Assembly (NCBI GenBank): GCA_036268055.1
Contig: DATAUW010000012.1
Coordinates: 1 to 64,000, forward strand
From: Verrucomicrobiia bacterium
GTDB taxonomy: Bacteria > Verrucomicrobiota > Verrucomicrobiia > Limisphaerales > Pedosphaeraceae
DNA length: 64,000 nucleotides
Direction: 5' to 3'
Below, piece after piece: positions 2,601 through 7,394 of the stretch. Position 1 is the stretch's first letter. The number at the start of each line of letters is the position of its first letter. The notes under the pieces were generated by a model. That model worked only from the letters and a program-made list of their open reading frames with translations. It had not been told where the DNA came from and ran no database searches. Both the position numbers and the translations under genes were made by a program.

Positions 2601-4025
2601 ATGTTGTGGTGGAAATTACATCGGCTGAAGTCCAAGGACGCGAAAACACGCCGGCGCACCATTGAAGAAATGGTCGCAAGCGAGGATTCTTCAGTCGTTG
2701 AACCCATTCTCGAAGCGTTGCAGGATGAGGAGCCGGAGGTGCGCATCGCCGCCGCGAAGGGTCTCGGAACTCTCTCCGACGAACGCGCGGTCAAGCCGCT
2801 CATCGCTTCTTTGCGCGATCGCAATCCCGAGGTTCGCGCGGCGGCCATCACGTCGCTTCGGCAACTCGGCGATCCACGCGCGATCAACGGCATCGTTTCC
2901 ACGTTGGAAGATGGCGACCACAGTGTGCGCTGGCAGGCGGCGGGCGCGTTGAACACTTTGGGTTGGCGTCCCGGCAATAACACCGAAATCATGTTGCGCT
3001 CGGTGGCGATGGGCCAGCATGAGAATGCGGCCACCGCCGGTCCGGCTGCGGTGGAAATTTTGGCGAAGGCTTTGCAGGACCCGACCTCTCCGCGACGCCA
3101 CGCCGCGGCCTCCGCTCTCGGCAAGACCGGCGATCCGCGCGCGGTGAAGCATTTGGAAATTGCCTTGCGTGACGAAGACAGTCATGTGCGCGTGGCGGCG
3201 GTCGAGGCACTTTCGCAACTGGGCAATCTTCAATCCGGTTCGGCGCTGCTCACGCTGCTGCGCGACCGCAATCATCTCGTGCGTTCGGCGGCCGTCGAAG
3301 CGCTTGGCCGCATGGGCGATGCGCGCGTCGTCGAAGCCATCGCCGACGGTTTGTTGCACGACGAATCGTGGGACGTCCGTAAACTTTCCGTTGAAACGCT
3401 GGGCCGAATTCGCGACGAGCGCGCCACACAGTTGTTATGGAAAGCGCTCAAGGATGCCGACCATGACGTGCGGCAAACAGCGGCGCATTCGCTGGGGCAA
3501 ATTCCCGATTCGCGCAGCATCGGGCCGCTCGTGCTCGCATTGAAGGATGAAAACAGCGCCGTGCGGCAGGCGGCGAAGGGCGCGCTGCGGCAGATTGACC
3601 GGCAATGGGAAATTTCCCCAGGCGCGCAAAGCGTGATGGCTGAACTCGAGGCCGCCGTCAACGACAAGGAATATTGGGTGGCGCAATCCGCCGCCGACAC
3701 GCTCGCGAAAATCAACGACGTGCGCCAGAAATTGCTGGATGCCGACGCCGTGATTGACCCGATGAAACAACGGCTCGCCCAGGGCGCGGCGATTCTTGCG
3801 GACACGTTGAATGATTTTGATCGCGATCTTCGCCAGGCGTCGGCGGAGGCGCTGGGACGGCTCAATGATTTTGCCGCCATCCCGCCGCTGGTGGCCGCGC
3901 TGGAAGATTCCGACATGTGGGTCGGTCGCGCAGCGGCGTTTGCGCTGAATCATTTGAACTGGGTTCCCGCGCCTGAAGATGTGCAACGCATCGAACGATT
4001 AAAATCCCTCATGCTTCGCCACTGA
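2601..4025 (+). CDS. HEAT-repeat scaffold protein
   Basis: The protein is built almost entirely of HEAT/PBS-lyase-type repeats with a period of about 31 residues. Repeating units look like DERAVKPLIASLRD, NPEVRAAAITSLRQLG and DPRAINGIVSTLED, about a dozen in all, giving a curved alpha-solenoid normally used for protein binding. It has no signal peptide, so it is likely cytoplasmic. The start was set at the ATG giving MLWWKLHRLKSKD. An upstream in-frame TTG would add 30 residues that do not look like HEAT sequence. Its stop codon overlaps the start of the next gene (TGATG), so translation is probably coupled. Neighbours are a receiver protein, a roadblock-like protein and a phosphotransferase-like protein, so it is probably a scaffold or regulator in that signalling set. 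The partner is unknown. Confidence 0.9.
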   Translation: MLWWKLHRLKSKDAKTRRRTIEEMVASEDSSVVEPILEALQDEEPEVRIAAAKGLGTLSDERAVKPLIASLRDRNPEVRAAAITSLRQLGDPRAINGIVSTLEDGDHSVRWQAAGALNTLGWRPGNNTEIMLRSVAMGQHENAATAGPAAVEILAKALQDPTSPRRHAAASALGKTGDPRAVKHLEIALRDEDSHVRVAAVEALSQLGNLQSGSALLTLLRDRNHLVRSAAVEALGRMGDARVVEAIADGLLHDESWDVRKLSVETLGRIRDERATQLLWKALKDADHDVRQTAAHSLGQIPDSRSIGPLVLALKDENSAVRQAAKGALRQIDRQWEISPGAQSVMAELEAAVNDKEYWVAQSAADTLAKINDVRQKLLDADAVIDPMKQRLAQGAAILADTLNDFDRDLRQASAEALGRLNDFAAIPPLVAALEDSDMWVGRAAAFALNHLNWVPAPEDVQRIERLKSLMLRH

Positions 4026-5173
4026 TGTCCCTCTCACCCGCCAACGTAAAAAAAGTTTTGTTCGTGGACGACAATCTCCAGTTCCTGGAGATGATCGAGC
4101 GGCTCATGGGCAACTGGAGCCAGGGCGAATGGCAAATTTTTCTCGCGCAAAATGCCGGCAAGGCGCTGATCATTTTACAGGAGCAGGCGATTGACCTGGC
4201 CGTGATTGATGTGCAAATGCCCGTGGTGGACGGCATTCAATTTCTCGCGCTCATCAATCGCAAATATCCCGCGGTGCAGAAAGTCACCTTGAGCGCGTAC
4301 GCCGATGATGCCTCGCGCGCTGCTTGCCTGGCCCATGGCGCGGAATTGTTTCTGGAAAAACCGCGCGATCCGTCCGACTTGGAAATTATTTTCGCGACGT
4401 TGCGCGAACTGGCGCGGCACAAGCCGACCATCAGTGGTTTTCGCGGCGTGTTGCGGCAAGTCAGCTTGCAGGACGTGATCCAGATGGAATGTTTGAATCG
4501 CAATTCCTCCATCTTGCAGGTCAACGCCGGGCAATGGCAGGGCGAAATTTTCATCAAGGACGGCTCGATCATCCACGCGCACGCGGGCGACCGGAATGGC
4601 GAAGCGGGCTTGAACAAAATCCTTGGGCTCAAGGGCGGCGAGTTCAATCTGCGTCCCTTCACCGAGCCGCCGATCCAGACGATTGATGGCTCATGGGAAT
4701 TTCTTTTGATGGAAGCTGCCCGCGCGCGCGACGAGGAAAGCGAAAACGAAATTCCCGAGGCGCCGCCGAGCGTGGCCGACCTTCCGCCCGCGCCGGCCAT
4801 CATGCCCAAGCCCGCGCCGCCGCTGCGTCCGCCGGTCAACGTCGTTGCACCCGCGAAACCGATTGTGCCGTCCGCGCCCGTGGTTTCATTGCCCGCGCCG
4901 GCGGAGAATCGTCCCGCCCGCATTGACGAGATGGTGGTTTGTTCGGCCCGCGGCGAAGTGCTTTACGAATGGCAATGCGCGAATGCCGGCGACCGCGTGA
5001 GTTTTCTCGAATTTCTTTCGCGTAAATCGCTGCAACTCGGAGAGGGCCTGGGCCTCGGCGTATTCGACCGGCTCGAAATCGAAGGCGATAGCTCGCGCGT
5101 CGTAGCGCAACTTAAAAAAGATCGCGGCGTCTTCGTGCGTGCCACGAAAACCGCGCCGCGCAGCATCGAATAA
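4025..5173 (+). CDS. Response regulator: receiver, DUF4388 and roadblock-like domains
   Basis: Residues 1-125 are a complete CheY-like receiver: acidic pair Asp15/Asp16, phospho-acceptor Asp62 in LAVIDVQMP, hydroxyl residue Ser90 and Lys112 in FLEKP. Residues about 135-240 match the DUF4388 (PatA-type) domain, with SGFRGVLRQVSLQDVIQM and GEIFIKDGSIIHAHAG. A proline/alanine-rich linker of about 55 residues follows. The last 90 residues (IDEMVVCSARGEVLYEWQC onward) look like a roadblock/LC7-type alpha/beta domain. There is no DNA-binding domain, so output is probably by protein contact. The gene overlaps the HEAT gene by one base and is seven bases from the next gene, fitting one operon. DUF4388 receivers are common in gliding and polarity signalling, but the role here is inferred only. 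Confidence 0.88.
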   Translation: MSLSPANVKKVLFVDDNLQFLEMIERLMGNWSQGEWQIFLAQNAGKALIILQEQAIDLAVIDVQMPVVDGIQFLALINRKYPAVQKVTLSAYADDASRAACLAHGAELFLEKPRDPSDLEIIFATLRELARHKPTISGFRGVLRQVSLQDVIQMECLNRNSSILQVNAGQWQGEIFIKDGSIIHAHAGDRNGEAGLNKILGLKGGEFNLRPFTEPPIQTIDGSWEFLLMEAARARDEESENEIPEAPPSVADLPPAPAIMPKPAPPLRPPVNVVAPAKPIVPSAPVVSLPAPAENRPARIDEMVVCSARGEVLYEWQCANAGDRVSFLEFLSRKSLQLGEGLGLGVFDRLEIEGDSSRVVAQLKKDRGVFVRATKTAPRSIE

Positions 5174-5180
5174 TTTTTCC

Positions 5181-5537
5181 ATGCAAGAACAAGTTCACAA
5201 CTGGCTCAGCGAAAAAACGAAGATCTCCGGCGTGCTCGCCTGCGGCATCCGCGCGCCCGACCGCAAAACCTTCACGCGCAGCCTGACGCCGCAGTTCACG
5301 CAAATGGCGCTCGAAAATGCCTGCCGCTGCCTGAGCGATACCTTTCAAGTGCTGGGCTCAAATCGTTTTCCCGTCCGCCTCGTGCGCTGGGTTTATGAGA
5401 ATTATTTTTTCTACGGTTTCATGCGGCCCGATGGCCATTGCTTCGCGCTGCTGACGCGCCGCAACGCCGCCCAACCCGCGCTGCAACAACACGATCTTGA
5501 AACCATCGTCAGTGAATTCCACGCGCTCGAAACCTGA
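5181..5537 (+). CDS. Small roadblock/LC7-like protein
   Basis: A 118-residue cytoplasmic protein beginning MQEQVHNWLSEKTKISG. The pattern of an N-terminal helix, a strand with GVLACGIRAPD, a helix with LENACRCLSDTFQVL, and strands ending VYENYFFYGFMRPDGHCFALL fits a single roadblock/LC7 (MglB-like) domain, a fold that dimerises and often regulates small GTPases. The assignment is from pattern only and is not certain. The start was chosen at the ATG seven bases after the preceding stop codon. It sits between the receiver protein, whose C-terminus also looks roadblock-like, and a phosphotransferase-like protein. A hetero-interaction with that C-terminal domain is a reasonable guess. Confidence 0.65.
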   Translation: MQEQVHNWLSEKTKISGVLACGIRAPDRKTFTRSLTPQFTQMALENACRCLSDTFQVLGSNRFPVRLVRWVYENYFFYGFMRPDGHCFALLTRRNAAQPALQQHDLETIVSEFHALET

Positions 5538-5555
5538 CGGACGAATCCATTTGCT

Positions 5556-6251
5556 ATGAACGAAACCCAACCTTCGGTGACGCCGCTGTCCTCGCTGGAA
5601 ATTTCCGGCGCGATTTGCGCGCGGGTGATCCATGACCTGACGAACCTGCTCGCGGGCATCCTCGGCAATGCCGAATACGCGCAGAGCGCGGACGCGAACC
5701 CGGCCAATTTGCAGAAGGCGCTTCAGGCGATCACGGTGTCGGCGAATTCCGCCGGGAAACTGCTCGGCCAATGTTTGCCGTTGCAGCATATCATTTCGCG
5801 CTCGGCGTTTCCGTATCCCGTGACGGAACTGGCGGCGGACCTTGCCGAGGCGGCCTGCCTCGCGCCCGGCTGGCACGTCAATGCGCCGCCGCCGCTCGCG
5901 GGTGATGTTTCAGTTCAACCGCGCTGGCTCACCGCCGCCATCTGGCAACTCGCGCGCGAGGCGGAAGTCACTTCGGGCGAAATTGATTTCATCTGCGGAC
6001 CGGCGGTTTTTCCCGTCGTGTGGTCGGGCGCTGGCGCTAGCGGGCAGCCTAAACAACTTTTTCAGATCACCTTGAGTTACCGCTCGGACCATCAGCTTCT
6101 GCAAAACAACGTGCCGGTGAGTCCGGAAAAATTTGCGCTCCTCGCGGCGCAGGAAATCATCCGCCGTTCCAAAGGCCAGATCCACTCGCGCCCCAAACCT
6201 CCCGGACGCCAGGAAATTTCGATTCTGATTCCAGTGGCGCAAGGTTTTTGA
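5556..6251 (+). CDS. ChpT-like histidine phosphotransferase / kinase-derived protein
   Basis: Residues 20-75 resemble a histidine-kinase dimerisation helix pair with an H-box: VIHDLTNLLAGILGNAEY, placing the candidate phospho-histidine at His26. The C-terminal 150 residues have the size of an ATPase-like lobe but lack clear N, G1 or G2 boxes. This is the layout of ChpT-type phosphotransferases, which pass phosphate between receivers using a dead ATPase fold. There is no membrane or sensor domain. As last gene of the HEAT/receiver/roadblock set, it is the natural phosphate partner for the receiver's Asp62. It could instead be a degenerate kinase. No sensor kinase is nearby. Confidence 0.7.
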   Translation: MNETQPSVTPLSSLEISGAICARVIHDLTNLLAGILGNAEYAQSADANPANLQKALQAITVSANSAGKLLGQCLPLQHIISRSAFPYPVTELAADLAEAACLAPGWHVNAPPPLAGDVSVQPRWLTAAIWQLAREAEVTSGEIDFICGPAVFPVVWSGAGASGQPKQLFQITLSYRSDHQLLQNNVPVSPEKFALLAAQEIIRRSKGQIHSRPKPPGRQEISILIPVAQGF

Positions 6252-6515: not shown

Positions 6516-7151
6516 TTAAGCGAGGAGGGAGTCCGCGAATAAGGATTCAATAGTCGCGGGAATGGTGGCGGAAAAACCGTTGAGAATTTGATTCGATTCC
6601 GTTTGTGAAAGTGCGAGCGTGCGCGCGGCGGAATCAATGAAGCCGCGGGTGATTTGATTGGCGTAAGCGCAGAGTCCCTGGCGCAACGGCAGGGAAAAAA
6701 CGGAAAGCGTCAAACCATAGACGAGTGTGTGCCAGCCATTGGCTTCGCCTTGCTCGACGGCGGCGAGGTAACGCTGCACGAGGCGATGGTCACGCAACGG
6801 ACGAAGCCGCAGCAACTGATTTTGCCCGGCGCGCCGACTCGCGTGCGAGAAATTTTGGAGGAGCGATTCGCCGGCGATCTGGCGGTCGTAGGCGATCAGT
6901 TCGCGGAGTTCGTTGCGCGCGGCGTGGTTAAAGGCGCGTTGAATCGCGGGAAGTTCGAGCGGCCGCAAAATTTTCGCATGATAATTTTGCAGGAAGGATT
7001 GCAGGTCCGCCGCGGCGTGGAGTTGAGAAAGTGAGGCGAGCGCGTCCGTGAGCGAAGCCAGGCCATCCGTCGAGCCAAGCTGCTCGATCAGCGGCGCGAG
7101 GTCACCGAGTAATTCCGCCGTTGCCGGCGCGATTTGAGTTTGATGCGACAT
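6516..7151 (-). CDS. Orphan UreF-like urease accessory protein
   Basis: The 211 residues follow the UreF pattern: an N-terminal part ending DLQSFLQNYHAKILRP, a middle with LPAIQRAFNHAARNE and FSHASRRAGQNQLLRL, the conserved GEANGWHTLVYGL block near residue 135, and the tail YANQITRGFIDSAARTLALSQ. UreF helps load nickel and CO2 into apo-urease with UreD, UreG and UreH. No urease structural gene or other accessory gene lies within this window. It may serve a urease elsewhere or have taken another job. The match is by pattern recognition only. The gene is isolated, transcribed towards the hairpin cluster, and has a 243-base gap upstream with nothing recognisable. Confidence 0.6.
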   Translation of the reverse strand: MSHQTQIAPATAELLGDLAPLIEQLGSTDGLASLTDALASLSQLHAAADLQSFLQNYHAKILRPLELPAIQRAFNHAARNELRELIAYDRQIAGESLLQNFSHASRRAGQNQLLRLRPLRDHRLVQRYLAAVEQGEANGWHTLVYGLTLSVFSLPLRQGLCAYANQITRGFIDSAARTLALSQTESNQILNGFSATIPATIESLFADSLLA

Positions 7152-7394
7152 GTTTTACGGCTAAATCTTTTCCCGCATTTATCACCCTTTAACGCTGCCC
7201 CGCTTCATGCCGGAATGCCAGCAGTAAAAATGCCAACGGAGGGATTAATAGCTTGCTTTTAATGGATTTTTGCGGCTATTCTGCGGTGCATCCTCTCGCC
7301 GAATTTCTCCAATGCAGATCGGTGATTTTATCCTGTGAAGATTTTCGGCCGCTCACTTTTTGACGTGGCTGACTTCGGCGTTCCGCTCAATAAA

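Follow-up and report, generated by a model that had tools for sequence, protein, structure and literature searches.

Detailed knowledge of MglA polarity systems comes mainly from Myxococcus, whose receiver protein RomR is not known to carry a PATAN domain or a roadblock-like tail. The genome analyzed here is that of a Verrucomicrobiia bacterium, from which a stretch of 64,000 nucleotides (the window) contains a cluster of four genes at positions 2601-6251. Like the MglA/MglB/MglC/RomR module of Myxococcus xanthus (PMC10329633, PMC9481161), this genome encodes an MglA GTPase (E 1e-61), an MglB-like roadblock protein, further roadblocks and a linked receiver protein, and type IV pilus ATPases are present as well. 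It differs in having a HEAT scaffold and a HisKA-like protein as additional components, in the module being an operon, and in a receiver protein that bears a PATAN domain and a roadblock-like tail. In cyanobacteria, PixE, PixG and LsiR (PMC7690835) likewise combine a CheY-like receiver with PATAN and have a proposed action on type IV pili, and PATAN regulators act on the pilus motors of Synechocystis (PMC7690835, PMC9090330); in the window, however, PATAN is followed by a tail of roadblock-like order and is accompanied by roadblock and HEAT genes. In the Streptomyces conservons CvnA-D, as described in passages of PMC4316618 and PMC13343842, a histidine-kinase-like protein, an MglB-type roadblock and a small GTPase act together. 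The window cluster was rejected as a conservon: its gene set differs, it does not join kinase, roadblock, CvnC and GTPase in one operon, no GTPase gene lies within the four-gene cluster, and no CvnC-type protein was identified.

Proximity between PATAN genes and some Group 1 and 5 mglA genes is mentioned in passages of PMC4316618 (citing Makarova et al. 2006), which also list the MglA of Verrucomicrobia as Group 5. This neighborhood link to MglA/MglB, which goes beyond the first-pass annotation of the window, is already published. The word HEAT has no occurrences in the main text of that paper, and in passages of its main text we saw neither a pairing of tail and roadblock, nor a fusion of HEAT with roadblock, nor a HisKA-like partner. 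Beyond this proximity, no description of the module was found in literature on DUF4388/roadblock, HEAT/MglA or Verrucomicrobia MglA.

Layout and domain content of the cluster

The features of the cluster are as follows.

2601..4025, + strand: gene for a HEAT-repeat scaffold, 474 aa, nine HEAT_2 stretches (E 2e-91)
4023..4027, + strand: TGATG stop/start overlap of genes 1 and 2, read from the sequence; the TGA of the HEAT gene overlaps the following ATG by a single base
4025..5173, + strand: receiver-DUF4388(PATAN)-linker-tail gene, 382 aa, phospho-acceptor Asp62
4055..4384, + strand: receiver domain, residues 11-120 (Pfam Response_reg, 68 bits)
4445..4738, + strand: DUF4388/PATAN domain (PF14332, 58-61 bits)
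4895..5170, + strand: C-terminal tail of the second gene, probable minimal roadblock core (low-confidence model, family, fusions)
5181..5537, + strand: gene for the 118-aa roadblock-fold protein (predicted fold)
5556..6251, + strand: gene for a HisKA-derived protein, 231 aa, invariant His26, without recognizable N, G1 or G2 box

The first-pass annotation had described four close or overlapped genes starting with a TGATG coupling, a complete receiver, a DUF4388 domain and neither kinase nor DNA-binding output, all of which was confirmed. Gaps of 7 nt (genes 2/3) and 18 nt (genes 3/4) make the remaining pairs closely spaced without overlap, and no kinase or DNA-binding gene was found within 2601-6251. 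The receiver carries the acidic pair (Asp15/16), the phospho-accepting Asp62, the Thr/Ser position (Ser90) and Lys112; D15, D16, D62 and K112 were kept in 48-50 of 50 mapped orthologues (Asp62 in 48). DUF4388 (PF14332), which we take to be the PATAN domain, scored 58.3 bits against a family cut-off of 25, and 61 bits in the genome search.

Two roadblock-like domains had also been proposed, and these fared differently. For the third gene the proposal stood by predicted fold: the AlphaFold2 model of the 118-aa protein (pLDDT 75, pTM 0.67) has the order helix-2 strands-helix-3 strands-helix and aligned with the roadblock 3kye (VIA Z 13.4, rmsd 2.4, 110 aligned residues) and with MglB 6hjm (Z 12.2, rmsd 2.6, 112 aligned), and the top Foldseek rows were mostly roadblocks. 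LAMTOR proteins were also among the VIA structural matches. Pfam and NCBIfam did not recognize the third gene, none of 40 relatives matched Pfam Robl_LC7 at E 1 or better, and its family profile found no relatives in PDB and no match when compared directly with the tail family or with MglB; a full-length hit to the roadblock end of the protein encoded in the mglA operon was weak, with a probability of 25%. Since sequence-model and profile comparisons fail, the roadblock call for the 118-aa protein rests on its predicted fold. For the tail of the second gene, what stood was a roadblock-like order (strand-strand-helix-three strands, with no end helices visible) in a model of pLDDT 47; the quality of the whole-protein model was too low for structure search. 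Its sequence family (A2, 37 sequences) reached Robl_LC7 weakly through a single member (E 0.11) and, in profile comparison, weakly matched the roadblock end of that same protein, with no relatives in a profile search of PDB. The tail is a candidate for a minimal roadblock core, with indirect support.

The fourth protein had been called ChpT-like with a dead ATPase lobe. It shares with the ChpT phosphotransferase of Caulobacter and Brucella a HisKA-type helix pair, a conserved His of the phospho-accepting type and a lobe without ATP-site motifs: His26 was invariant in nine aligned HisKA-like sequences, no N, G1 or G2 box was recognizable, and PDB kinase profiles aligned across the HisKA-like helices and weakly across the lobe. 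Its genetic context differs, however, and identity with ChpT was rejected on cut-offs (NCBIfam ChpT model, 13.9 bits versus 240; no PF10090 match), so that the HisKA derivation, conserved His and dead lobe stand and the ChpT assignment does not. The protein is probably a phosphotransfer or docking protein.

Distribution and genomic ties to mglA and mglB

Of 320 genomes belonging to the window's order, 83 were positive in profile searches with the 118-aa protein, and in 60 of 62 mapped loci its gene lay directly behind the tail or was fused to it; of the two loci without a visible tail, one is at a contig edge (L045) and the other lies behind a ketol-acid reductoisomerase gene (L046). Upstream of the receiver-DUF4388 gene, 53 of the 62 loci have a HEAT gene. 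Protein identities of 54-73% in other genera of the window's family, with the gene order repeated across many families, indicate that the cluster is more than chance and is not specific to one strain. A sample of the phylum gave no match outside the order (2 of 387, both within the order, with few candidates scored per genome). Natural fusions occurred in two forms, HEAT-tail-roadblock in seven genomes, all without the PATAN domain, and REC-DUF4388-tail-roadblock in six cases. Twelve of the 62 loci also carry a receiver-HDOD gene alongside the module, an addition in relatives that the first-pass annotation did not include. In one genome (G138), the module is immediately preceded by genes for a PAS histidine kinase and a lone receiver.

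The first-pass annotation had likened the cluster to polarity or GTPase-control systems and had suggested looking for a small GTPase elsewhere in the genome. Such a gene was found: mglA (C33:9940-10551; E 1e-61 against M. xanthus MglA) adjoins an MglB-like roadblock gene (C33:9453-9992; Robl_LC7, 33 bits) on a contig separate from that of the module. A divergent REC-DUF4388 paralogue stands beside this operon and recurred in 15 of 20 MglA loci inspected. The likeness was borne out by this GTPase operon, by gene linkage in relatives and by co-occurrence across genomes. In G005, from another family, Big725-mglA-mglB-HEAT-REC-DUF4388-tail-roadblock are contiguous on one strand, and the same order is repeated in another genus of that family (G063) across a contig break within mglB (codons 1-58 at one contig end, 62-157 at the other). 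In G073, Big725-mglA-mglB is directly preceded by two genes, one for a protein made up of signal peptide, LamG, TM and DUF4388-tail, the other for a relative of the 118-aa roadblock. The mglA operon of the window's genome is the same as in these relatives. Direct adjacency was limited to these three genomes from two families, with tens of genomes carrying both apart. Across 320 genomes, 78 had both module and MglA, 5 the module only, 60 MglA only and 177 neither (Fisher P = 7e-30; by family 26/1/17/18, P = 5e-5), a test in which relatedness is corrected only in part. The five module-bearing genomes (of 83) without an MglA match are drafts. The 60 genomes with MglA and no detected module indicate that MglA does not need the module.

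Proposed function and rival explanations

We consider it fairly likely that the four genes supply the genome's small GTPase switch of MglA/MglB type with an input module gated by phosphorylation. Support comes from the receiver, with its conserved chemistry, and the DUF4388 domain, the predicted roadblock, the His of the HisKA-like protein, the fusions, the operon linkage, the REC-DUF4388 paralogue beside mglA, the co-occurrence and the published PATAN precedents. The tail and the 118-aa roadblock may pair as a heterodimer that docks on the HEAT scaffold. Asp62 would be phosphorylated by a kinase encoded elsewhere, perhaps via His26 of the HisKA-like protein; this protein could also act as a phosphate drain. 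Phosphorylation would then free or hide a PATAN-roadblock surface, and the roadblock pair would bind MglB or MglA, comparable to MglC linking RomR to MglB in Myxococcus, and so bias where, or how long, MglA stays in its GTP state. As output, the placement or activity of type IV pili seems most likely.

Cyanobacterial proteins that combine PATAN and receiver bind PilB1, as PixE does in Synechocystis (PMC7690835, PMC9090330), and the window's genome has 13 matches to T2SSE-family ATPases. The phosphorylated receiver-PATAN protein might bind a type IV pilus motor ATPase directly and independently of MglA, with the roadblock and HEAT proteins merely holding the complex together. We regard this as unlikely: it does not account for the operon linkage to mglA-mglB or for the co-occurrence, and PATAN, the part expected to contact the motor, is missing from the seven HEAT-tail-roadblock fusions. 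Less probable still is a general two-component scaffold with no tie to a GTPase, in which roadblocks would be dimer adaptors, and the receiver-HDOD protein and the HisKA-like one would signal to a different output, for example gene expression or c-di-GMP. The receiver-HDOD genes, the kinase and receiver upstream in G138, and the use of roadblock folds as non-catalytic scaffolds (such as the LAMTOR proteins among the matches) favor such a scaffold, whereas the links to mglA-mglB in the genomes, and the REC-DUF4388 paralogue that recurs next to mglA, argue against it.

A separate question concerns the fourth gene only and is compatible with any of these readings. The HisKA-like gene was found in 9 of 62 mapped loci, six of them from the window's own family, and the chances seem to us evenly balanced that its product is a late accessory addition outside the core machine. 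Against this, it accompanies the module in three other families (G027, where it lies downstream of the receiver-HDOD gene, G034 and G116), and His26 is kept in all nine.

Returning to the input-module reading, the joining of the module to mglA/mglB genes in relatives suggests that it probably signals to cells the place or time at which to deploy the surface-motility machinery; the module probably acts in polarity or type IV pili. More tentatively, and with the odds against it, the cluster could represent a new class of small-GTPase regulator, in which a HEAT scaffold carries a dedicated roadblock heterodimer (in principle similar to LAMTOR/Ragulator) whose grip on MglA/MglB would be switched in some species by a phosphorylated receiver-PATAN protein and in others by a lectin-like domain that lies outside the cytoplasm and acts across the membrane. 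The module would provide a second, independently organized set of MglA-linked regulators, in Verrucomicrobiota. Its natural fusions predict which module proteins touch, and the long-noted, unexplained neighborhood of PATAN and MglA genes becomes directly testable.

Gene layout and recurrence of the module

The module comes from a Verrucomicrobiota draft genome, to which Pedosphaera-type MAGs are the closest named relatives, and comprises four genes in the window:

2601-4025, + strand: HEAT-repeat protein
4025-5173, + strand: receiver (REC)-DUF4388 (PATAN) protein with a conserved tail of 80-90 residues
5181-5537, + strand: 118-residue protein with no family match
5556-6251, + strand: 231-residue protein, weakly matching HisKA

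The first-pass annotation had described these genes as overlapped or closely spaced with a TGATG coupling, and this was borne out: genes 1 and 2 overlap by one base (TGATG), followed by gaps of 7 nt (genes 2 and 3) and 18 nt (genes 3 and 4). A UreF-like gene (6519-7154, - strand; 56.8 bits) adjoins the downstream end, with no other urease accessory genes noticed beside it. Elsewhere in the window, cumulative GC skew reaches its maximum at about 38000, and between 38 and 42 kb there is an abrupt shift to strongly negative GC skew with positive AT skew, for which tandem repeats do not account.

The same gene order, sought in other genomes of the order, recurs widely. Queried directly, the 118-residue protein was present in 53 of 196 genomes; a profile recovered it in 83 of 320 genomes and 42 of 118 genera. 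Across the 62 mapped loci on which gene-order counts rest, the tail was encoded directly 5′ of the 118-residue protein in 60 (fused to it in 14), and the HEAT gene lay upstream in 53 (fused in 7). A receiver-HDOD gene (HDOD by Pfam) accompanied the module in 12 of the 62 and a HisKA-like gene in 9. Single-chain HEAT-tail-roadblock proteins, with neither receiver nor DUF4388, occur in seven genomes, and REC-DUF4388-tail-roadblock proteins in six; these natural fusions predict that the parts they join are in contact. In one genome (G027, L073:5967-8515) the module is reordered as REC-DUF4388-tail, roadblock, REC-HDOD and HisKA-like protein, which suggests that the REC-HDOD and HisKA-like genes move as a pair. 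In another (G138:C17, L155:1757-4792), the genes just upstream of the module encode a PAS histidine kinase and a solitary receiver, and this kinase is a candidate cognate partner for the module within that lineage.

Predicted folds and putative phosphotransfer residues

Modeling of the 118-residue protein (AlphaFold2, four sequences; pLDDT 75) predicted the roadblock order of elements, helix-strand-strand-helix-three strands-helix. By VIA-align, the model resembled the roadblock 3kye (Z = 13.4, rmsd 2.4, 110 aligned), the Asgard roadblock 7yh1 (Z = 13.2), MglB (6hjm; Z = 12.2) and MglC (7ct3; Z = 10.3), and most of its top Foldseek rows were roadblocks or domains of that fold, for example those in Gtr/Rag proteins. 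The predicted fold agrees with the earlier reading of the third gene as roadblock-like. Because the Pfam roadblock model matched none of 40 relatives, the protein is, as modeled, a divergent roadblock fold without a detectable Robl_LC7 sequence.

The second gene had also been assigned a roadblock-like domain. In a poor full-length model (pLDDT 47), its tail runs strand-strand-helix-three strands, matching the order of a roadblock core but lacking the end helices. A REC-DUF4388 paralogue beside mglA carries a related but longer tail (profile match probability 29%) that seems to contain the end helices. Together, these observations are only suggestive of a roadblock-related tail. The receiver itself is well preserved, with the phospho-acceptor Asp62 retained in 48 and Lys112 in all 50 of the mapped orthologues; receivers of HDOD proteins and other stray matches are more degenerate.

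The fourth protein had been called ChpT-like with a dead ATPase lobe. An alignment of nine relatives supported part of this description, with His26 invariant (context H-D/E-L) and none of the ATP-site motifs recognisable, but the ChpT model scored far below its cut-off and identity with ChpT was rejected. In a profile search of the PDB, the matches were histidine kinases (E = 5e-6), with ZraS aligned over the full length at 3e-4 and ChpT itself at E = 0.9. The most fitting description is a phosphotransfer-type protein derived from HisKA.

Genomic association with MglA and MglB

The small GTPase that the first-pass annotation had proposed seeking elsewhere in the genome was found: a single MglA-type gene (C33:9940-10551; E = 1e-61 to Myxococcus xanthus MglA), followed by an MglB-like roadblock gene. 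Two further proteins figure at this and a related locus:

L075:10560-12734 (own genome, C33): Big725, a 725-residue proline-rich protein with a C-terminal roadblock, preceding mglA
L120:8987-11236 (G073:C107, another genome): membrane protein with a signal-peptide-like start, LamG/concanavalin-like domain, transmembrane helix, DUF4388 and conserved tail

Big725, which matches no Pfam family outside its roadblock, is kept directly upstream of mglA across the MglA loci read. A second REC-DUF4388 gene runs divergently at the own-genome operon, and a divergent gene of this kind is present at 15 of 20 MglA loci read. More tellingly, genome G005 encodes Big725-mglA-mglB-HEAT-REC-DUF4388-tail-roadblock in one uninterrupted run; G063 has the same order, broken only by a contig end within mglB; and in G073 a second version places the DUF4388-tail membrane protein, a possible outside-to-inside input to the GTPase, and a roadblock gene ahead of Big725-mglA-mglB. 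MglA was found in 78 of 83 genomes with the module versus 60 of 237 without it (Fisher test, P = 7e-30), and in family-level counts of 26 (both), 1 (module only), 17 (MglA only) and 18 (neither; P = 5e-5), all from draft genomes and with relatedness corrected only in part.

Proposed mechanism and output

Linkage of PATAN genes to mglA/mglB has been reported earlier (PMC4316618). No description of the HEAT/REC-PATAN-tail/roadblock/HisKA-like unit, of its fusions or of the lectin-type membrane version was found in the open-access literature searched. In Myxococcus, RomR, a receiver protein, is part of a complex with the roadblocks MglB and MglC that sets the sites of high GAP activity (PMC10329633). 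For the present module, we infer phosphotransfer, interaction with MglA/MglB and an output: His26 of the fourth protein would perhaps relay phosphate to the receiver, whose phosphorylation would throw the switch in the PATAN-tail unit. A pair made of the tail and the 118-residue roadblock, seated on the HEAT scaffold, would then have MglB or MglA as its target. PATAN-receivers of Synechocystis act on PilB1, a pilus ATPase (PMC7690835, PMC9090330). The own genome holds 13 T2SSE-type ATPase matches, and a pilus is therefore a possible output of the module.
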